Shown piece after piece: positions 34,346 to 46,170 of a DNA stretch of 64,000 nt. The translations under genes were made by a program, and so were the position numbers. The notes beneath the pieces were generated by a model that worked only from the letters and a program-made list of their open reading frames with translations, made no database searches and was not told the DNA's origin. The DNA comes from Candidatus Methanosuratincola sp. GTDB lineage: Archaea > Thermoproteota > Methanomethylicia > Methanomethylicales > Methanomethylicaceae. Position 1 is the first letter of the stretch. Each line of letters starts with the position of its first letter. The stretch covers positions 1 to 64,000 of the forward strand of contig JBBFLR010000003.1 of assembly GCA_037478935.1 (NCBI GenBank), in the 5' to 3' direction.

Positions 34346-34570
34346 GTGGTTCGCCTGGTTCTATACGATCTCATAATTGTCGGTGGGGGGCCCGCCGGCC
34401 TCGCTGCGGCAGTCTACGCGAGGAAGCGGCTCCTCAATACCCTCGTGCTCACGCTGGACATCGGCGGGCAGGTCCTACAGACCGAGAAGATCGACAACTA
34501 CCCTGGATACTTGGAGAAGAGCGGGATGGGGCTGTCCGCGCCGCCGTTAGCCTCAGCTCCGCCTTCATGA
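34346..34570 (+). pseudogene. trxB: Thioredoxin reductase, 5' fragment
   Basis: GTG start. The first 65 codons encode a perfect TrxB N-terminus: [20 protein letters not shown] (FAD dinucleotide motif), [19 protein letters not shown]. After LEKSGMGL the similarity stops, the sequence becomes Ala/Pro/Ser-rich and ends at a stop. The NADPH domain and the redox CxxC are absent. The C-terminal 40-odd codons of the same gene appear at 36301-36438 in the same direction, so this is one gene whose middle of roughly 200 codons has been replaced. Not functional as it stands. Confidence 0.78.
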
Positions 34571-36620: not shown

Positions 36621-36959
36621 ATGTTCTTGGATCTGGCCGGCCCTGCAGGGGTCTTTGCGCTGGCGTTGCTGGCGGCTGCCCTCGTGTACCTGTGCGGGCG
36701 GTCTGGAGGCAAAAACGTTGGCGAAGGGGCCGAAAAGGGCGCCAAGCTCCAGCCATATGCGTGCGGTGAAGAGCTCCCGCCTGAACAGGTTCCTGTGAGT
36801 ATCCACATGTTTGATTTTGCTGCATTCTTCCTGATATTCGACGTCATTTCGATCGTCCTGATCTTCTCCTTCTCTGCATCCAATGTCTTCCTCCCAATTG
36901 CCTACATCGCTCTCTCCGGGTTGGCTCTGTATGCCATAATGACGTACAGGAGGCGCTGA
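36621..36959 (+). CDS. nuoA: Complex-I-like subunit A
   Basis: 112 residues with three membrane spans. The loop after the first span has KLQPYACGEELPPEQVPVS, the signature PYxCG(x)E of NuoA/FpoA, and the second span begins FDFAAFFLIFDVISIVLI. Subunit A in complex I helps shape the quinone chamber between H, B and D. Its presence separates this complex from Ech and Mbh hydrogenases, which lack it. First of 12 closely spaced genes; two bases separate it from nuoB. Confidence 0.88.
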   Translation: MFLDLAGPAGVFALALLAAALVYLCGRSGGKNVGEGAEKGAKLQPYACGEELPPEQVPVSIHMFDFAAFFLIFDVISIVLIFSFSASNVFLPIAYIALSGLALYAIMTYRRR

Positions 36960-36960
36960 T

Positions 36961-37404
36961 GTGGGCATAATCGACTGGGCCTTCAGGAAGAGCCCTTGGA
37001 TCCTGCACTTCAACACCGGATCGTGCAACGGCTGCGACATCGAGATATTCGCGACCCTGACGCCGAAATATGACGTCGAGCGCCTCGGTGCATTGCTCAA
37101 GGGCAGCCCGAGGCATGCTGATATCCTTGTTGTGAGCGGGCCGGTAACCAGGCAGGCGAGCGGAAGGATACTCAGGATATACGAGCAGATGCCTGATCCG
37201 AAGAAGGTGGTTGCAGTCGGCACCTGCTGCATAAGCGGAGGGGTCTTCTCGAATGGAGGCAAGGGGCCTTGCTACAACGTCTATCCGGGGCTCGATTCGC
37301 TAGTGCCGGTCGATGCTTATGTCCCTGGGTGCCCGCCGAAGCCCGAGGCGATACTCGACGGCATATCCAAGGTCGCAAAGAAGGCAGGGGTTGGTTGCAA
37401 ATGA
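36961..37404 (+). CDS. nuoB: Complex-I/hydrogenase small subunit B with CxxC cluster motif
   Basis: 147-residue peripheral subunit that carries the cluster nearest the catalytic site. The cysteines are Cys22 and Cys25 in TGSCNGCDIEI, Cys89 in GTCCISGG and Cys124 in PGCPPKP. Respiratory NuoB has two adjacent cysteines (CCAIE), while this CNGCDIE form is that of group 4 [NiFe]-hydrogenase small subunits (EchC, MbhJ). GTG start two bases after nuoA. This is direct sequence evidence for a hydrogenase-type electron path. Confidence 0.9.
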   Translation: MGIIDWAFRKSPWILHFNTGSCNGCDIEIFATLTPKYDVERLGALLKGSPRHADILVVSGPVTRQASGRILRIYEQMPDPKKVVAVGTCCISGGVFSNGGKGPCYNVYPGLDSLVPVDAYVPGCPPKPEAILDGISKVAKKAGVGCK

Positions 37405-37865
37405 ACGCGGAAGAAGCCATTCGGGCCCTGACTGGCGCGGAAGGCGTCCAGGAGATTAAGGCGCTGTCGGAGAGGCGCATCCTCGTGGCCTGCTCAAGGG
37501 ATGCCTACAGGGGTGTCGTAGGGCGACTAGCCGGGTTGGGTTTCAACCATGTGGTCGCGATGACCGGGGTGGACATGAAGGAGGGGATCGACCTCCTGCT
37601 CCATCTGGGATCCTCGCTGATGGTAACCGTCAGGGTGAGGTTGGACCCGTCCAGACCGAAGATATCCTCGGTCTCTGACATTCTGCCTGGGGCAGAGATG
37701 AGGGAGAGGGAGGTCCGGGACCTGCTCGGGGTCGAGTTCGAGGGCCATCCGTCGCCTTCAAGGTTCATGGTCTCTGAGGACTGGCCTGCTGGGGTTTACC
37801 CGCTCAGGAAGGCTTTCACCCCTGCCACTGCCGCTCCGGAGACAAGGAGGTCTGGTCCGGGATGA
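37401..37865 (+). CDS. nuoC: Complex-I-like subunit C
   Basis: 154 residues from the ATG at 37401, which overlaps the nuoB stop. It has the 30-kDa subunit features VAMTGVDMKEGIDLLLHLG, VTVRVRLDP, REREVRDLLGVEFEGHP and PAGVYPLRKAF. The open frame extends upstream out of phase with nuoB but has no gene character there. The protein forms the peripheral arm with B, D and I. C and D are separate genes. Confidence 0.9.
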   Translation: MNAEEAIRALTGAEGVQEIKALSERRILVACSRDAYRGVVGRLAGLGFNHVVAMTGVDMKEGIDLLLHLGSSLMVTVRVRLDPSRPKISSVSDILPGAEMREREVRDLLGVEFEGHPSPSRFMVSEDWPAGVYPLRKAFTPATAAPETRRSGPG

Positions 37866-38995
37866 GCTCTAGCTACGAGAGGATATTCGACATACCGATA
37901 GGCCCCCAGCACCCCGCGCTGAAGGAGCCTGCTATGCTGAAGCTGAAGGTCGATGGGGAGCACGTGGTGGGCGTCGACCTGGACGTGAGCTACAACCACC
38001 GCGGCATCGAGAAGGCTGCAGAGTACAGGACCTACATACAGAACCTGTACTTGATCGAGAGGATCTGCGGGATCTGCAATGTGGCGCAGACCCTCACCTA
38101 TTGCCTCGCTGTGGAGTCGCTGCACGGCAAGGAGATACCCGCCAGGGCCAGGTTCCTGAGGATCGTGGCCGAAGAGATCTCTAGGATAAACAGCCACCTC
38201 CTTTGGCTTGGCGTTGCCGCCCACGAGATAGGGTTCGACACGTTCTTCATGCACATCTGGCTCGACCGGGAGATCACGCTGGGTCTGATGGAAGCGCTCT
38301 CCGGGAACAGGATCACCTCATCGTACAATGTGATCGGCGGTGTGAGGCGTGACGTGACCGAGGATCTCCTCTCTAGGATAAGGAAGGGGCTCGACGATCT
38401 CGAGCCTAGGGTGAAGAGGTACAGGGAGATCGCGATCAATGACAGGTCGATCCTGAAGAGGACCCAGGGGGTAGGGCTGCTCTCACCTGCCGACGCCGTT
38501 GCGACCTCCGCGGTTGGCCCCACCCTCAGGGCATCGGGGATAAGGTCGGACGTGAGGGCGGACGACCCGTACTCCTCCCATGACCAGGTCCCGTTCAACG
38601 TCGTCGCCTCGGACGGGTGCGATGCCCACGCCAGGATACTTGTAAGGCTCGACGAGATACTCGAGTCGATCCAGATGTGCAGATACTGCGTCCAGAAGCT
38701 GCCTTCTGGGCCTATACTGCAGAGGCTCCTACGCCGCACCCCTCCGGGCGAGGGGTTGTCGAGGGTCGAGGCCCCGAGGGGAGAGCTCTTCCACTACATC
38801 CTCTCGGACGGCTCAGACAAGCCGTACCGCTGCAAAGTGAGCACCCCGACGCTGGCGAACCTCCCAGCGCTGGTCAGGATGCTCACCTCGAAGGGAAAGT
38901 ATGTCGTGAACATAGCCGACGTGCCGGTCATCCTAGCCTCCATAGACCCCTGCTTCAGCTGCGCCGCGCGCGTCGAGAAGTCGGGGGGAGTGTAG
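37862..38995 (+). CDS. nuoD: Complex-I/[NiFe]-hydrogenase large subunit with both CxxC motifs
   Basis: 377 residues. The N-terminus IPIGPQHPALKEP and VSYNHRGIEKAAE place it in the NuoD/group 4 large-subunit family. Both nickel-ligand motifs are intact in cysteines: L1 ERICGICNVAQ (Cys69, Cys72) and L2 DPCFSCAARVE (Cys364, Cys367). The His of L1 (CGxCxxxH) is Gln76 here. Quinone- or methanophenazine-linked NuoD and FpoD are generally expected to lack the four cysteines. It may bind a NiFe centre and evolve or use H2, or be an evolutionary intermediate. A C-terminal tail of only ten residues follows L2. Confidence 0.9.
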   Translation: MSSSYERIFDIPIGPQHPALKEPAMLKLKVDGEHVVGVDLDVSYNHRGIEKAAEYRTYIQNLYLIERICGICNVAQTLTYCLAVESLHGKEIPARARFLRIVAEEISRINSHLLWLGVAAHEIGFDTFFMHIWLDREITLGLMEALSGNRITSSYNVIGGVRRDVTEDLLSRIRKGLDDLEPRVKRYREIAINDRSILKRTQGVGLLSPADAVATSAVGPTLRASGIRSDVRADDPYSSHDQVPFNVVASDGCDAHARILVRLDEILESIQMCRYCVQKLPSGPILQRLLRRTPPGEGLSRVEAPRGELFHYILSDGSDKPYRCKVSTPTLANLPALVRMLTSKGKYVVNIADVPVILASIDPCFSCAARVEKSGGV

Positions 38996-38997
38996 GC

Positions 38998-39975
38998 TTG
39001 GATACCGCAATCCTGTCGCTCCTCCAGACCCTTGCGTTCCCGGGGTTCCTGTTTCTGGCAGTATCATCCTTTTTCTACGAGTGGCTCGACCGGAAGATCT
39101 ACGCCTGGATGCAGTTCCGGGCGGGCCCTCTATCGGCGGGGCCGATGGGCATCCTCCAGCCCCTCGCGGACTTTATCAAGCTGATGGGGAAGGAGGACAT
39201 CACCCCTGCTTACGTTGACAGGAGGATCTTCGGGGCAGTCCCTGTCCTGATGGTTGCGATAACCCTCACATTCTGGGCGGTAATCCCGGTCACAGGGGCA
39301 GCCGGTCTCGTCAGCTTCAGGGGCGACGTTATATTCGCAGTTGTGGCGATGACATTCTTCTGCATCTTGGTTTTTCTAGGCGGGTTCTCCTCCGCCAACA
39401 GGTTCTCGCTCTTGGGGGCCGAGAGGGCGACCCTCCAGCTCCTCGGGTTTGAGATACCGCTGATGTTGTCGGTCACGGGCGTCTGCATCCACACGGGCGG
39501 GCTGTCCATGGCCGAGATAGTCTCCTGGCAGGCTGAGAACGGGTGGTCAGTACTGGGGCCCCAGGCGATAGGCTTCTTCATCTTCCTCATCGCTGCACAG
39601 GCGGAGCTCGAGAGGATCCCCTTTGACATACCTGAAGCCGAGCAGGAGATCGTCGCCGGCTGGCTCACAGAGTACTCGGGGAGGAAGCTTGCCCTGATCA
39701 GGCTCGCCAAGGACATGGAGCTGGTCTTCGTCTCCGGGCTAGCCGTGGCGCTCTTCCTCGGCGGGCCGGTCGGGCCGTCCCCGTCAGGGATGGAGTGGAT
39801 CGCCTACACCGCATACTTCCTGCTGAAGGTAGCCATAATCGTTTCAATACTTGCGATCATAAGGGGGCTCTTCGCGAGGGCGAGGATCGACCAGATGGTC
39901 TCGTTCGGCATACGGTACCTGGTTCCGCTCTCGCTCGCCCAGGTAGCTGCAACCGTGTTGTGGAGGCTGTTCTGA
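38998..39975 (+). CDS. nuoH: Complex-I-like membrane subunit H
   Basis: The TTG at 38998, seven bases after GGGGGGAG, gives 325 residues. Eight membrane spans with family motifs FYEWLDRKIYAWMQFRAGP, LLGAERATLQLLGFEIPLM, ERIPFDIPEAEQEIVAGW and YSGRKLALIRLAKDMEL. NuoH links the peripheral arm to the antiporter-like subunits and contains the acidic residues of the entry proton path. The extension of this open frame into nuoD is not coding. Confidence 0.9.
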   Translation: MDTAILSLLQTLAFPGFLFLAVSSFFYEWLDRKIYAWMQFRAGPLSAGPMGILQPLADFIKLMGKEDITPAYVDRRIFGAVPVLMVAITLTFWAVIPVTGAAGLVSFRGDVIFAVVAMTFFCILVFLGGFSSANRFSLLGAERATLQLLGFEIPLMLSVTGVCIHTGGLSMAEIVSWQAENGWSVLGPQAIGFFIFLIAAQAELERIPFDIPEAEQEIVAGWLTEYSGRKLALIRLAKDMELVFVSGLAVALFLGGPVGPSPSGMEWIAYTAYFLLKVAIIVSILAIIRGLFARARIDQMVSFGIRYLVPLSLAQVAATVLWRLF

Positions 39976-40310
39976 TGTCTGTGCTTCGCGACATAATAGA
40001 GAGGAGGGTCAGGCGCGAGAGGATCCGCAGGTGCGGCCCGACGGGCGAGGGGGTCGAAGCCAGCCCCTCGTACCGGGGCAGGGTAGGGCTGAAGAGGGAG
40101 CTGTGCATCGGATGCTCGCTCTGCGAGAAGGACTGCCCGTCGGCTGCCATCAAGATAGTCCAGGACGAGAAAGGGAAGCGCCCAGTCTTCTTCCTCGACA
40201 GGTGCATGTTCTGCGGGCAGTGTAAGGAGAGCTGCCCGACAAAGGCTATATACATGAGCAGCGAGCCTGAGCTGCCAGTGTTCGACAGGAAGGAACTGGA
40301 GGTAAGGTGA
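39975..40310 (+). CDS. nuoI: Complex-I-like ferredoxin subunit I
   Basis: 111 residues from the ATG at 39975 that overlaps the nuoH stop by one base. Two [4Fe-4S] motifs are CIGCSLCEKDCP and CMFCGQCKESCP. It passes electrons from the donor to subunit B. As no NuoEFG, FpoF or FpoO gene is present, the likely donor is reduced ferredoxin docking directly on this subunit, as proposed for other input-less complexes. Confidence 0.92.
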   Translation: MSVLRDIIERRVRRERIRRCGPTGEGVEASPSYRGRVGLKRELCIGCSLCEKDCPSAAIKIVQDEKGKRPVFFLDRCMFCGQCKESCPTKAIYMSSEPELPVFDRKELEVR

Positions 40311-40552
40311 GCATCATGATCGACTTGGCTGTAGCAATTATGATCATCGCGTTCGCGCTCGTGGCCGTGCATGTATCCGACCTGGTGCGGATGACCATAG
40401 CCTTTTCCGTCATGAGCCTGCTCATTGCAGTCTCCTTCTACCTGCTCGGCTCCGCGTACGCTTCGGCTTTCCAGATCGCGATAAACGCCGGGGCAGTGAC
40501 GATCCTGTTCCTGGCGATGATCCACGTGATGAAGCGGAGGAGGCTCGACTGA
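40307..40552 (+). CDS. nuoJ: Complex-I-like subunit J, N-terminal part
   Basis: 81 residues with three membrane spans (DLAVAIMIIAFALVAVHV, RMTIAFSVMSLLIAVSFYLL, FQIAINAGAVTILFLAMIHV). This matches only the N-terminal half of NuoJ, and the typical pi-bulge helix region IAxNAGAVTILFLAMIH is present. GTG start overlapping nuoI by four bases; ATG at 40316 also possible. Its C-terminal half appears to be encoded by the next gene. The Mbh hydrogenase has comparable small MbhD-like subunits. Confidence 0.8.
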   Translation: MSIMIDLAVAIMIIAFALVAVHVSDLVRMTIAFSVMSLLIAVSFYLLGSAYASAFQIAINAGAVTILFLAMIHVMKRRRLD

Positions 40553-40869
40553 TGTCTGACGAAAGACCCGCAGGGGGATCGGAGGACGTGCCCCAGGGCG
40601 GCGGCTTCGGGATGCCAGTCCCCCGCTGGATCAGGTGGGCCGGCATTCTGGCAGTGCTTGCGGCTCTCGTCCTGATCGCAACTTCCTTCCAGCAGTCCTT
40701 TGCCTTCTCCGCACCTTGGTCCTCGACCCTGCCATTTGACGAGGACCCAGGATTCCTCTGGGATTTCAGGGGTATTGACGTATTGGTGCAGGGAGTGATC
40801 GTAATGGCGGCTACTGTTGCGGTAACTTCCCTTCTGAGGGAGTACAGCGTGGTGGGCGAGGATGAGTGA
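40552..40869 (+). CDS. Probable subunit J, C-terminal part
   Basis: 105 residues: a hydrophilic Gly/Pro-rich leader of about 25 residues, one span (WAGILAVLAALVLIATSF), an extracellular loop and a second span (DVLVQGVIVMAATVAVTSLL). Position right after a half-length NuoJ, overlapping it by one base, and the two-span pattern fit the C-terminal half of NuoJ, or an MbhE/MnhB-like subunit. Sequence similarity is weak, so the call leans on context. Confidence 0.6.
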   Translation: MSDERPAGGSEDVPQGGGFGMPVPRWIRWAGILAVLAALVLIATSFQQSFAFSAPWSSTLPFDEDPGFLWDFRGIDVLVQGVIVMAATVAVTSLLREYSVVGEDE

Positions 40870-41164
40870 GGTATTCAGCGCTGCCGCACTGGTGCTCTTT
40901 TTCATAGGGCTATACTGCGTCGTTACTAGGCGGAATATGATAAAGACCGTGCTAGGGATCGAGATAATGACCTCCGCGGTGAACCTGAACTTCATATCGT
41001 ACGCCTCCTCCGGGGCTGGAGCGGATCCGCTGGGCACGAGCATCGTCATAGTCTCGATCTCTGTGGGGGCTGCCGTCGCCGCCCTCGCCCTCTCGATGGT
41101 GATCGCGGTCTACCGGAAGACCGGGAGCGTGGACGTCAGGGAGCTGAGGAGGTTGAAGTGGTGA
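40862..41164 (+). CDS. nuoK: Complex-I-like subunit K
   Basis: 100 residues, three membrane spans. Motifs are RRNMIKTVLGIEIMTSAVNLNFIS, where the Glu in GIEIM is the conserved proton-path residue of NuoK/MnhC, and IVIVSISVGAAVAALALSMVI. Overlaps the preceding gene by eight bases and the next by seven. Confidence 0.9.
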   Translation: MSEVFSAAALVLFFIGLYCVVTRRNMIKTVLGIEIMTSAVNLNFISYASSGAGADPLGTSIVIVSISVGAAVAALALSMVIAVYRKTGSVDVRELRRLKW

Positions 41165-42666
41165 GCGACCTGCCCGCCTTCCTCTTTCTGGTCCCGCCGC
41201 TGGCAGGGGCCGTGATCCTCACTGCGACCTCTTCACTTTACAGGAGGAGGTTCTATCCTGCCGCCAGGTGGCTGGTCTCGATCTCCTCGTTGGTGCTCTC
41301 CATGGCCCTCCTAGTCTGGATGGCCCCTCCTCTGCCGGCATCCTACCGCCTCAACGGCTTCGGTCCCCCCGCAGGATCTTACCTGCTCTTGGACGGGCTT
41401 TCGGCATTCCTCTGCCTCACGGCGGTGTCGGTCGTGTCCCTATCAGTCGTCTTCTCCTACAGGTACATGGAGCACGACCTGGGCAAGAACAGGTACTACT
41501 CGCTGATGCTCCTCCTCACGACCGGGCTCCTCGGGGTCTTTGTATCGGGAGACCTCTTCACGCTCTTCGTCTTCTGGGAGCTCATGTGCATCTCCTCCTA
41601 TGCGCTCGTGTCTTTCAGGAAGCACGAATGGGAGCCCCTAGAGGCAGGGTTCAAGTACCTTGTGATGAGCACGGTCGGTTCGCTGGTTGCGCTCTACGGG
41701 ATCTCGCTAATTTACGGGATCGCTGGCACACTCGATATCGGGGGCATTGGCGCCGCCCTCGCCGTAGCCGGTCCGGTCGGGTACTTCCCGCTAGCCATGA
41801 TCGTTGCAGGGTTCGGGGTGACAGCCGCGATGGTCCCGTTCCACACCTGGCTGCCCGACGCGCACCCCGCCGCGCCGAGCCCCGTCAGCGCGGTCCTCTC
41901 CGGGCTGGTTATAAAGGGCGGGGTCTACGCCATATTCAGGATCCTATTCGCCGGTTTCACCACGTACAGCTTTGCGGTCCCCCTCATCGTCATGGGGGCT
42001 GCCACGCTGACCCTCGGGAACCTGATGGTCTTCGCCCAGCAGGACATAAAGCGCTTCTTCGCATACAGCAGCGTTGCCAACATGGGTCTGATCCTCCTGG
42101 CCGGGGGATCGGCGAAGTACATCTCCGAGGTCAACCCTGCCGGTGCTGGGCTGGCATACATGGCGATGGCGGGCGCGCTGTTCCACGTTCTTAACCATGC
42201 GCTGGGCAAGTCCCTCCTCTTCCTCTCCTCTGGCTCGATGATCCACTCTGCGGGGACAAGATCCATCGAATCCCTGGAGGGGATCGGCAGGAGGATGCCC
42301 TGGTCCGGCGGCGCCCTGATGGTCGGCCTCCTCAGCCTTGCAGGGATACCGCCGCTCGGCGGCTTCTGGAGCAAGCTCCTCGTACTTGCACCGCTAGCCT
42401 ACTCCCTCGCAGCAGGCGATCCCGCACTCGCTGCAGCCTTCTTTGTCGTCCTGATCAACAGCCTCCTCGCCGCAGGGTACTACATATGGCTTGCACAGCG
42501 TATCGCCTTCAGGCCCGGAGCACTTCCGGAGGGGATCCGTGAGTCGCCGCCTTCGATGGTGATCCCGCTGGCAGTCCTCTCGCTGATGTGCCTCGCGGTC
42601 ACATTCGCCCTGCCGTGGCTCGTCCCGGCACTAGAGGCGATCTCCAGATCTTTGATGGGGGCATGA
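41158..42666 (+). CDS. Antiporter-like subunit, MrpD/MbhH/NuoN type
   Basis: 502 residues, about 14 membrane spans. Key residues of the family are Glu in FVFWELMCISSYALVSF, Lys in the segment FKYLVMSTVGS, FHTWLPDAHPAAPSPVSAVL followed by VIKGGVYAI with its Lys, and FFAYSSVANMGLI. The APSPVSAVLSG form is closer to MrpD and MbhH than to NuoM. It is one of three proton- or sodium-pumping subunits. The gene order K, this, L, M differs from the usual K-L-M-N. GTG at 41158 or 41161 is the start. Confidence 0.85.
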   Translation: MVSDLPAFLFLVPPLAGAVILTATSSLYRRRFYPAARWLVSISSLVLSMALLVWMAPPLPASYRLNGFGPPAGSYLLLDGLSAFLCLTAVSVVSLSVVFSYRYMEHDLGKNRYYSLMLLLTTGLLGVFVSGDLFTLFVFWELMCISSYALVSFRKHEWEPLEAGFKYLVMSTVGSLVALYGISLIYGIAGTLDIGGIGAALAVAGPVGYFPLAMIVAGFGVTAAMVPFHTWLPDAHPAAPSPVSAVLSGLVIKGGVYAIFRILFAGFTTYSFAVPLIVMGAATLTLGNLMVFAQQDIKRFFAYSSVANMGLILLAGGSAKYISEVNPAGAGLAYMAMAGALFHVLNHALGKSLLFLSSGSMIHSAGTRSIESLEGIGRRMPWSGGALMVGLLSLAGIPPLGGFWSKLLVLAPLAYSLAAGDPALAAAFFVVLINSLLAAGYYIWLAQRIAFRPGALPEGIRESPPSMVIPLAVLSLMCLAVTFALPWLVPALEAISRSLMGA

Positions 42667-42670
42667 TGAG

Positions 42671-44716
42671 GTGTCTGCGTTTTCAGAATGGTTGGCATTC
42701 GCGCCTGCCTGGCTCTGCTGGCTCGTCCCGTTGGCAGCGGCTCTTCTCGTTCCCGCCGTCGGCAGGTTGAGCAGGAGGGCGATGGAGCTACTCGGAACAC
42801 TCTCAGTGGCGGCGTCCGCCGCGCTGGCATTGCTGATGGCTACATGGATACCGGTCGCGGAGTTTCCCGTCCGGCTCCTCGCCCCATGGGTTGCGCCGCC
42901 GATCAGCGCGGTGGGGTTGCAGATGCCTGAAATAAGCTTCGGGATCCTGGTGGACCCAGTAAGCATCATACTGGCAAACGTCGTCGCACTTGTCGGGGCA
43001 CTGATCATGGTCTACTCGGTCAAGTACATGGAGGGGGAGCCGAGCACGACCCGCTTCTGGTTACTGATGGACGCCTTCGTCGGTAGCATGCTCTTCCTCG
43101 TGATGTCCGACAACCTGGTTCAGATGCTCTTCGGGTGGGAGGGCGTGGGTCTGTGCTCCTACGCGCTCATAGGGTACTGGTACAGGGACTCGAAGGATCC
43201 GGAGACCTGGCTCACTGCATGGGTCGGAGAAGGGAAGGAGTCGTACCCGCCGTCGCACGCCGGGATGAAGGCCTTCCTGATGACGAGGTTCGGGGACGTC
43301 CTAATGATCGCCGGGGTGATCCTTCTCGCCATCTCCACCGGATCCTTCTCCTTCATCGAGATCGCCGATCGCGTGGGCACTGCTGGAACCAGCGGGCTCC
43401 TCCTCCCCGCCTCGGTCCTCATACTCTTCGGGGCGATAGGCAAGTCCGCCCAGCTCCCGCTGATGGAGTGGCTGCCGGACGCGATGACCGGCCCGGCACC
43501 TGTCAGCGCCCTCATACACGCAGCGACTATGGTCAAGGCAGGGGTCTACCTCGTTGCGCGCATCTTCCCCGTCTTCTACATTGCTGCAGCCGCAGACCCC
43601 GGGCTGATCCGGTTCTTCGAGATCGCAGCCTGGGTGGGGGCGGCCACCGCCTTCGTCTCCGCGACCCAGGCAGCCGTCTCGACCGAGCTGAAGAAGGTAC
43701 TCGCGTACTCGACCGTGAGCCAGATAGGCTACATGATGCTCGCCATGGGGGTCGCGGGCACGATGGCAGAGTTCTACATCGGATACGCTGGGGGGATATT
43801 CCACCTGATGAGCCACGCGGTCTTCAAGGCTGCGCTATTCCTGGCGTCAGGGGCGGTGATCCACGCGGTTGGATCCAGGTTCATGCGCCACATGGGCGGG
43901 CTGAGGAGGGAGATGCCCCTCACATACATCGGTGTGGTCGTCCCGTCCCTCTCCCTGATGGGGTTCCCCCTCCTGTTCAGCGGCTTCTGGAGCAAGGACA
44001 TGATCCTCGAGGCGGTCTTGGAGTCCGGCAGCCTACCCCTGCTCGCTGTCGCGCTGGCTACGGTCTCCATCACGTGCTTCTACACCGTCAGGATGGTCGG
44101 GAGGGTCTTCTGCGGAGAACCCGCGGCTCAGCCGGACGGCCCGGGGGAGGCGCACCGCCACGCCGGGGACCCGTCGCCGGCGATGTCCCTGCCCGTCCTT
44201 GCCCTCTCTGCTGCAACCGTAGCGATGGGCGTCCTGGGGTTCTATGAGCGCGAGTGGCTTGCGGAGACGCTCGGGGGCTATATCGGCTCCTTGGTCGGGC
44301 ACCCTGAGGCCGTCCATCTGGGAGACCCCGCTGCACAACTGCTCGTCCCAATGATCTCTTTTGCCTTCATACTGGCAGGGGCGATCCCAGCTTACCTGGT
44401 CTACATCAGGGGGATGCGGGTACCAGAGTCGCGTGCCCTGTCTCATATCAGGTCTTTCCTCGCAGACAGGTGGTACCTCAACAGGGTCTACTACGCCTGC
44501 ATTGTGGATCCGGTCTGGAGGGTCGGGGGGTGGATCTACGGGTCAGTCGAGGAGGGAGCAATGAAGTCGGCCGAGCGGTCCGCCCAGCAGTACCTGCTCG
44601 GATTCGTCGGGAGGTTCAAGAAGACCCACACCGGCGGCCTAAACGAGAACCTGATAGCAGTCCTCGCCGGGATGATTCTCCTCCTTGTCATGCTGCTTTT
44701 GGTGGTGGTTCCCTGA
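42671..44716 (+). CDS. nuoL: Complex-I-like subunit L
   Basis: 681 residues, the longest antiporter-like subunit, with about 16 spans and the long lateral helix near the C-terminus. Motifs are QMLFGWEGVGLCSYALIGYW (Glu), KSAQLPLMEWLPDAM, PAPVSALIHAATMVKAGVYL (Lys) and KVLAYSTVSQIGYMML. A His/Gly-rich insert (EAHRHAGDPS) lies before the C-terminal helices. GTG start four bases after the previous stop. It overlaps nuoM by one base. Confidence 0.92.
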   Translation: MSAFSEWLAFAPAWLCWLVPLAAALLVPAVGRLSRRAMELLGTLSVAASAALALLMATWIPVAEFPVRLLAPWVAPPISAVGLQMPEISFGILVDPVSIILANVVALVGALIMVYSVKYMEGEPSTTRFWLLMDAFVGSMLFLVMSDNLVQMLFGWEGVGLCSYALIGYWYRDSKDPETWLTAWVGEGKESYPPSHAGMKAFLMTRFGDVLMIAGVILLAISTGSFSFIEIADRVGTAGTSGLLLPASVLILFGAIGKSAQLPLMEWLPDAMTGPAPVSALIHAATMVKAGVYLVARIFPVFYIAAAADPGLIRFFEIAAWVGAATAFVSATQAAVSTELKKVLAYSTVSQIGYMMLAMGVAGTMAEFYIGYAGGIFHLMSHAVFKAALFLASGAVIHAVGSRFMRHMGGLRREMPLTYIGVVVPSLSLMGFPLLFSGFWSKDMILEAVLESGSLPLLAVALATVSITCFYTVRMVGRVFCGEPAAQPDGPGEAHRHAGDPSPAMSLPVLALSAATVAMGVLGFYEREWLAETLGGYIGSLVGHPEAVHLGDPAAQLLVPMISFAFILAGAIPAYLVYIRGMRVPESRALSHIRSFLADRWYLNRVYYACIVDPVWRVGGWIYGSVEEGAMKSAERSAQQYLLGFVGRFKKTHTGGLNENLIAVLAGMILLLVMLLLVVVP

Positions 44717-46170
44717 TGGAGATCCAAAGTAGCCCCGCCCTCCTCTACCTCGTCGCCGCGCTCCTAGTTTTTTCGCCAGCTGCCCTCGCACTGGAGAGGC
44801 TTGGAAGGCGCGCACCCGCGGCATTCTCGGTGGCTTCGCTCCTCTCTGCGTGCTGCGCAGCCGCACTCTCGGGCGTCCTGAACGGATCATTCTCCTTGCT
44901 GGCGGAAGTCCCCCTCCTGGGAAGGATCTCGTTCTTCTCGGACGGCCTCTCCTCGTCGATGCTCCTCGCCCTCCTCGCTGTGGCAGGGCTGGTGGCAGCC
45001 TCCTCAGTAAGGACTGCAAGTGGGGGGGAGCAGCGGGGCTTTTATCCCCTCTTCCTGCTCTACGTGGCTGGGCTGGCCGGCCTGTTCGTCTCGGCCCACC
45101 TCCTGCTGCTCTTCGCCTTCCTCGAGCTGACCCTCATCGCCTCCTGGCTGATGCTTGGATGGTGGGGCGGGACTGGCCGGGGGAGGGCATCCATAAAGTA
45201 CTTCATCTACACCGAGCTCGGGGCACTCCTCTTCCTAGCTGGTATCCTGCTCCTCTGGGGGTCCATAGGGACGTTTGACGTCTTGGCGGTCCGCGACAGA
45301 GGCGCCCTGCCCCCAGGCGCGATGCTGGCAGCCGCGTTCATTATCGCCGGCGTTTTCGTCAAGAGCGCGGTGGTTCCTGCTCACGGCTGGCTCCCGGACG
45401 CCTACTCCGAGTCCCCGCCGAAGCTAGCCTCTGTAATGTCCTTCTCAACCGTGGCGGTGGGCGCCTACCTCCTCCTCAGGGTCTTTGGTTCTTACATTCC
45501 GGGAGTGCTGGAGGACCAGGGCGTCTCGTGGGCTCTTGCTGCATTCGGTCTCCTCAACATCTCCTACGGCGGGATCGCCGCGATAAGGGCGAAGGACCTC
45601 CGCAGAGTCCTCTCCTATTCGAGCATAAGCCAGACCGGGTACGTCCTCCTTGGCGTGGCGTCGGCGAGCCAGATAGGTTTCCTCGGCGTCCTGATATGGG
45701 CGGTTGCGCACGGCTTCAGCAAGCCAGCACTCTTCCTCATCTCCGGGAGTTACCGGGACCTCTTTGGCACCGACTCGCTCGAATACCTTGGGGGCCTTGC
45801 CGGGAAGATGCCGCTGACATCCTCGTCGCTCCTGCTCTCCTTCCTTAGCCTCGCGGGAATCCCACCGACGCTAGGTTTTTGGGGCGAGTTCTTCATACTC
45901 TTCGGCTTCGCCTCTTCCCTGCTCTCAGCCGGGTTCGACCCGTTCGGGCTGGGGATCCTTGTCATTGCAGCAGTCTTCACGGTGGTCTCCGCCGCCTACG
46001 GTCTATGGACCGTGAGGCAAACGCTGTACGGCGTGCCTGGTCCGGTCGCCCAGGGCGCCCGCGACAACCCATCAGCCGTGCTGCCGCTTCTGGCGACGGT
46101 CCTTGTGCTGATCGCCCTCGGACTGATGCCCTTCCTGCTCACCGGGGCTTTTTGGATCTTCCCAGGGTGA
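44716..46170 (+). CDS. nuoM: Complex-I-like subunit M (antiporter-like)
   Basis: 484 residues from the ATG at 44716. About 14 spans; motifs are LLFAFLELTLIASWLML (Glu), VKSAVVPAHGWLPDAYSESP, KLASVMSFSTVAVGAYLLL and RRVLSYSSISQTGYVLLG. The lysine usually found after the SxxPxxAS segment (as in IKxGxYG) is not obvious here: the segment reads FSTVAVGAYLLL. Last gene of the 12-gene operon. Three antiporter-like subunits imply pumping of several ions per electron pair. Confidence 0.85.
   Translation: MEIQSSPALLYLVAALLVFSPAALALERLGRRAPAAFSVASLLSACCAAALSGVLNGSFSLLAEVPLLGRISFFSDGLSSSMLLALLAVAGLVAASSVRTASGGEQRGFYPLFLLYVAGLAGLFVSAHLLLLFAFLELTLIASWLMLGWWGGTGRGRASIKYFIYTELGALLFLAGILLLWGSIGTFDVLAVRDRGALPPGAMLAAAFIIAGVFVKSAVVPAHGWLPDAYSESPPKLASVMSFSTVAVGAYLLLRVFGSYIPGVLEDQGVSWALAAFGLLNISYGGIAAIRAKDLRRVLSYSSISQTGYVLLGVASASQIGFLGVLIWAVAHGFSKPALFLISGSYRDLFGTDSLEYLGGLAGKMPLTSSSLLLSFLSLAGIPPTLGFWGEFFILFGFASSLLSAGFDPFGLGILVIAAVFTVVSAAYGLWTVRQTLYGVPGPVAQGARDNPSAVLPLLATVLVLIALGLMPFLLTGAFWIFPG

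Follow-up and report, generated by a model that had tools for sequence, protein, structure and literature searches.

A complex-I-like operon with a four-cysteine hydrogenase-type large subunit and a substituted metal-site histidine in a Methanomethylicia methanogen

A 64,000-nucleotide stretch of Candidatus Methanosuratincola sp. (positions 1 to 64,000 of contig JBBFLR010000003.1; hereafter the window) contains at 36621-46170 an operon that joins NuoA-, NuoJ- and NuoK-like and three antiporter-like subunits to a NuoD-like large subunit (D) possessing all four cysteines of a [NiFe] hydrogenase. The operon probably encodes an Hfo-type complex (Fpo-like, group 4g-related), i.e. a reversible, ion-pumping ferredoxin/H2 hydrogenase of a methanogen, perhaps run in the direction of H2-driven ferredoxin reduction. 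This is the best explanation of what is directly seen, namely the gene content, the residues, the phylogenetic placement and the purifying selection. Operons of this type are already published (Hfo, 2021) and widespread; new in comparison with the described Hfo is a His-to-Gln change in the first metal-site motif throughout the genus of the window. The genome assembly (1.52 Mb, 37 contigs, 96.5% complete) contains mcrA, which together with the named relatives of D identifies the host as a methanogen of the Methanomethylicia (former Verstraetearchaeota).

The residues of D were compared with those of 111 other four-Cys sequences and of 36 sequences of the complex I/Fpo type. In addition to Cys69, Cys72, Cys364 and Cys367, D retains E22, R67, R306 and D362. 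The four cysteines, E22, R306 and D362 match in 111/111 of the other four-Cys sequences and R67 in 110/111, and the position of E22 is taken by Gly in 35 of the 36 complex I/Fpo-type sequences. A previous reading made from the sequence only had described the hydrogenase motifs as intact, which holds for the cysteines and not for two residues beside them: the first motif (L1) reads CGICNVAQ, with Gln76 in the place of the usual His, and the second (L2) reads DPCFSCAAR, with Ala369 instead of an acidic residue (D/E). Consequently, neither the full L1 pattern C[GS][ILV]C[AGNS]xxH nor the full L2 pattern [DE][PL]Cx[AGST]Cx[DE][RL] is matched. The L2 acidic position is also A, S or G in the sister genus, in Methanomethylicus mesodigestus, in B24 and in Wolframiiraptor; Gln76 is found in every genome of the window genus that has the operon, and the L1 His is present in 110 of the 111 other sequences, the sole exception (Wolframiiraptor sinensis) likewise having Gln. 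Among the positions conserved to at least 95% in the other sequences, D deviates only at Gln76 and Ser327. Beyond L2 its tail measures 7 residues, within the range of its family (5-11), in comparison with 24-50 in most relatives outside the family. The small subunit B possesses the hydrogenase motif CNGCDIE and not the paired CC of complex I, as had been claimed; in a motif census used for the archaeal contrast only, archaeal complex I shows ACCS or SCCG where B has CNGC.

The sequence of D requires a caution, because a joint lies within it, after about residue 203 of the protein. Bases 1-38472 are about 100% identical to contig C1 of genome G005, another species of the genus: 31.0-38.3 kb is free of mismatches and 9-30 kb contains a single one. 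Elsewhere the two genomes share only about 84% identity; from 38473 the identity falls abruptly to 72-84%, and synteny ends near 47.9 kb. Across the same point genome G003 agrees with G005 at 99.9%. It is therefore quite likely that the window D joins sequence from two species of the genus, probably as an assembly chimera or else through a very recent homologous recombination over at least 38 kb. Either origin is compatible with the functional readings discussed below. In the window, A, B, C and the half of D that bears L1 are not independent of G005. Nevertheless, intact operons with the same residues occur in genomes G004, G005 and G006 and at locus L044, so that the conclusions do not hinge on the window D and the biology is left standing.

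Against solved structures, D is closest to Escherichia coli HycE (1e-74), followed by Pyrococcus MbhL (6e-72) and complex I (1e-63), and the best match of B (MbhJ, 1e-47) is far ahead of complex I. The D tree comprised 66 rows (LG+C20+F+G4, two support values, unrooted; two stray paralogues were left out). All D sequences of complex I, Fpo and Fqo form one clade on a 100/100 branch, and the window D falls on the four-Cys side of it, within a group of 37 NuoA-bearing rows and nested there in a clade of 13 rows (100/99), which includes sequences from Bathyarchaeota, Nitrososphaeria and Wolframiiraptor; its family is supported at 100/100. A stray row of the tree, L162, is a fragment in an Ehd-like position that bears a complex-I label due only to its missing N-terminal motif. 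The phylogeny proposed in the sequence-only reading as a check thus places D on the hydrogenase side and does not recover the intermediate position that this reading had offered as its second possibility.

A position halfway from group 4 hydrogenases to complex I would fit the pairing of a four-Cys D with NuoA, J, K and three antiporters, and Loh et al. argue for a closer relation of the entire Hfo group to complex I than that of Mbh (PMC7886697). However, D is nested deep within the NuoA-bearing four-Cys group and is therefore a derived hydrogenase-type sequence, complex I, Fpo and Fqo being one distant clade; any link would concern at most the whole Hfo group, in an unrooted tree. We consider an intermediate status of the complex very improbable, and for the window sequence it is rejected by the D tree.

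Structural models of D are not decisive. A single-sequence model was poor (pLDDT, the predicted local distance difference test, of 36), and an alignment-based AlphaFold model reached 87.6, with the E22 loop (15-23) and residues 368-377 below 50. In a fold search of the PDB with the D model, HycE came first with complex I a close second (TM-score 0.87-0.91), and hence the fold cannot separate a NiFe site from a quinone cavity.

Several observations weigh against a functional hydrogenase. Gln76 and Ala369 replace residues of the published motifs; the short C-terminal tail makes maturation by a protease uncertain; subgroup 4g is without a biochemically characterised member (PMC7886697); and the maturation genes of the genome could serve only its other hydrogenases. 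These genes, the presence of which had been put forward as a check, were indeed found (adjacent HypC and HypD genes, and a HycI-type protease), but they are uninformative, because the genome encodes three further NiFe-hydrogenase large subunits (L010, L009 and L011), of which L010 is of the group 3b type.

On the other hand, within the genus D has a ratio of nonsynonymous to synonymous substitution rates (dN/dS) of 0.08-0.12 and B one of about 0.05, which indicates a complex under strong constraint. A second, independent L1 change from His to Gln (CGICNAAQ) is found in the same type of operon in Wolframiiraptor sinensis (L053, 9989-11185), again with all cysteines kept, and its sister species Wolframiiraptor gerlachensis (L051) carries the His. 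Two independent changes with all cysteines kept suggest, from sequence comparison, that an amide may be able to replace the imidazole at L1, and Gln76 probably tunes the metal site instead of abolishing it. A literature search for known H-to-Q changes in L1 yielded nothing useful.

With regard to the function, the sequence-only reading had proposed a ferredoxin hydrogenase with complex-I architecture, and this is still the best reading, albeit of a known and widespread kind (Hfo, PMC7886697) and not of a novel one. Neither an NADH nor an F420H2 input gene is present in the operon, in agreement with that reading. A profile search detected no NuoF (PF01512) in the genome, and the only protein of the FrhB/FpoF type (PF04432) is encoded by a stand-alone gene at C1:72853. 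Ferredoxin would dock at the arm formed by I, B, C and D in the manner of systems without a dedicated input module, and electrons would pass from the clusters of I to the cluster of B and on to D, whose NiFe site, with Cys69/72/364/367 as its ligands, could interconvert protons and H2; coupling would run via H, A, J and K to the three antiporter-like subunits, which would move ions. We infer the occupancy of the NiFe site, the ferredoxin partner, the H2 chemistry and the ion pumping from homologues. The motifs of ion translocation are retained, i.e. the Glu of transmembrane helix (TM) 5 and the Lys of TM12 in the three antiporter-like subunits and the acidic loop in H.

The number of antiporters bears on the direction of the reaction. 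Three antiporter-like subunits may imply a stoichiometry that does not permit the evolution of H2 at a normal membrane potential. It is therefore more plausible that H2 reduces ferredoxin for biosynthesis at the expense of the membrane potential, which agrees with the direction proposed for Hfo by Loh et al. (PMC7886697). By our own estimate, with ferredoxin near -500 mV and H+/H2 at about -300 to -414 mV, roughly 90-200 mV per electron would be available, enough to move about one to two protons for each electron pair at 180 mV. With the four-proton stoichiometry of complex I the H2-evolving direction would not run, but the enzyme would be effective as an H2-driven ferredoxin reductase at low H2. 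If the acceptor were a heterodisulfide (about -140 mV), the same estimate would make four protons affordable.

The last point, together with two HdrD-like genes in the genome, keeps a different reading alive, according to which the H2 chemistry has been lost (Gln76 and the other changes) and the complex, in the way of the headless Fpo of Methanomassiliicoccales, transfers ferredoxin electrons to the heterodisulfide reductase HdrD and pumps ions. A scheme of Fpo-like complex plus HdrD is accepted for Methanomassiliicoccales (PMC7374477); both HdrD-like proteins stand alone (L190, C8 at ~50 kb; L192, C3 at ~122 kb), Gln76 and Ala369 violate the published patterns, and three antiporters might be better suited to an acceptor of higher potential. 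Yet the four cysteines, E22, R306 and D362 are retained under strong purifying selection, and true Fpo and complex I have lost them; R327 is the only other near-invariant site altered in D, and the change of H to Q in Wolframiiraptor sinensis likewise left all cysteines in place. We therefore regard a complete loss of H2 chemistry as unlikely. More doubtful still is a transitional state confined to the window genus, in which the L1 His has been altered and the acceptor has switched or is switching (e.g. to heterodisulfide via HdrD) with the metal site still carried; if true, it would be a living case of complex-I-type enzymes leaving H2 chemistry, separate from the ancient one. No HdrE gene lies near either of the HdrD-like genes, and one of them follows a gene similar to an oxidase linked to flavin adenine dinucleotide.

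The reading as an Hfo-type hydrogenase is accompanied by a wide distribution of similar operons. A matching operon is present in G004, G005 and G018 and in many named relatives, D being 90% identical to that of a Methanomethylicales metagenome-assembled genome (MAG; L044) and 67% to that of Methanomethylicus mesodigestus (L047), which belongs to the same family. In the operon survey, NuoA together with a four-Cys D was found in Bathyarchaeota, Nezhaarchaeota, Wolframiiraptor, and MAGs of Asgard and Thermoplasmatota type, and also in bacterial MAGs (Omnitrophota, Elusimicrobia, Acidobacteriota, Phycisphaerae and Bacillota). The NuoA assignment has Pfam support in 6/8 relatives tested, one of which (L055) is slightly under the cut-off; the NuoA of the bacterial loci L107 and L118 reached no Pfam significance, and the bacterial claim rests on the remaining loci, iterative profiles and the YACG motif. 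Given that NuoA accompanies a NiFe-type D commonly in archaea and also in bacterial MAGs, annotating operons of this type as NADH dehydrogenase should be avoided. For the question of how hydrogenases became complex I, Hfo-type complexes offer the best extant material, and the window genus contributes a naturally occurring exchange at an almost invariant position beside the NiFe site, with the His-keeping sister genus as a comparison.

Bacterial loci such as L080, L094, L109, L111, L113 and L118, and others, show Hfo-like clusters in the order L-L-L-J-K-A-B-C-D-H-I with a four-Cys D. The sister-genus genomes G008 and G018 have two Hfo-like operons each (in G008 at L145, C18, and L021, C38), of which one belongs to the window type, whereas the D of the other is about 52% identical and has MDR in L2. 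Of the two, only the window-type operon is kept in the window genus.

The operon comprises twelve genes in the order A B C D H I J1 J2 K antiporter-1 L antiporter-3, all on the + strand and overlapping or nearly so (Table 1). Pfam searches confirmed NuoA, B, C, D, H, K and the three antiporter-type subunits. The genes, order and coordinates claimed in the sequence-only reading hold, including the split NuoJ, with the start of the third antiporter gene shifted from 44470 to about 44716. J2 had zero matches among Pfam or NCBIfam profiles, and a counterpart was found at the same place in related operons in the survey. Upstream of the operon, at 34346-34570, lies a thioredoxin-reductase-like open reading frame of 74 aa that appears truncated or frameshifted.

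Table 1. Genes of the operon and the joint within D, in window coordinates.
Feature	Position	Strand	Support
NuoA/FpoA-like subunit, 112 aa, 3 TM	36621..36959	+	PF00507 26 bits, cut-off 23.3
NuoB/MbhJ-like small subunit with CNGCDIE, proximal 4Fe-4S cluster	36961..37404	+	PF01058; MbhJ 6cfw_J best PDB match, E=1e-47
NuoC-like subunit	37401..37865	+	PF00329 91 bits
NuoD/hydrogenase large subunit	37862..38995	+	PF00346 plus PF00374
Joint inside D	38472..38473		identity to G005 of ~100% before the joint and 72-84% after it
NuoH-like subunit with acidic loop ERIPFDIPEAEQEIVAGWLTEY	38992..39975	+	PF00146 296 bits
NuoI-like subunit, two-cluster ferredoxin, two CxxCxxCxxxC clusters	39975..40310	+	sequence motifs
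J1, NuoJ N-part, MbhD-like	40307..40552	+	PF00499 E=1.4e-5, under curated cut-off
J2, presumed NuoJ C-part	40552..40869	+	position; iterative profile matches in related operons
NuoK-like subunit	40862..41164	+	PF00420 89.5 bits
Antiporter-like subunit 1, TM5 Glu and TM12 Lys motifs	41158..42666	+	PF00361 198 bits
NuoL-like subunit	42671..44716	+	TIGR01974 480 bits, over cut-off; PF00361
Antiporter-like subunit 3, NuoM/N type	44716..46170	+	PF00361 183 bits; TIGR01972 242 bits, below cut-off

Of the other large subunits in the genome, L009 (G000:C7:43000-62000) belongs to a group 4 cluster of Mbh-like type that includes two polyferredoxin genes and immediately precedes an A-type ATP synthase operon, and its D has a very long branch and the motif CDPCLTCCTR. 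L011 (G000:C4:84000-103000) is part of an Ehd-type cluster with a HycE-like D, in which DQC stands for DPC in L2; its neighbours are HdrB-like, corrinoid protein, methanol-type methyltransferase and RamA-like activator genes.

Among known systems, respiratory complex I (Nqo/Nuo, including the archaeal forms) shares with the window complex the subunits A, H, J, K, L, M and N and the fold of D; the window operon differs in the absence of NuoEFG, in CNGC instead of paired cysteines in B, and in the four cysteines and E22 of D. The Mbh of Pyrococcus furiosus (group 4d; 6CFW) is the closest solved relative of B and the second-closest of D, with the same NiFe residues and CNGC, but is without NuoA and has an Mrp-type Na+ module (PMC7886697). 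The Ehd of Methanomethylicia, an HdrB-linked group 4 hydrogenase (PMC9723716), is likewise a group 4 NiFe complex and occurs in the same organisms, here at C4 (L011); its D is only 38% identical, and it has HdrB/C-like genes, one antiporter and no NuoA. The headless, ferredoxin-dependent Fpo-like complex of Methanomassiliicoccales and Methanothrix resembles the window complex in its architecture, the lack of an input module, the methyl-reducing methanogen host and the HdrD-like proteins; it possesses, however, a true FpoD without NiFe cysteines, in contrast to the window D, which groups with four-Cys sequences and not with Fpo/Fqo. The greatest similarity is to Hfo, which Loh et al. described in 2021 from termite-gut Bathyarchaeia as an Fpo-like [NiFe] hydrogenase of group 4g with 11 subunits, listing near-identical clusters for Methanomethylicus (M. 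mesodigestus) and Pyrodictium (PMC7886697): the subunit set, the order A-B-C-D-H-I-J-K-antiporter, the absence of FpoFO/NuoEFG and the four NiFe cysteines of D are shared, and the window genus differs in Gln76 for the L1 His, Ala for the L2 acidic residue and its 7-residue tail.

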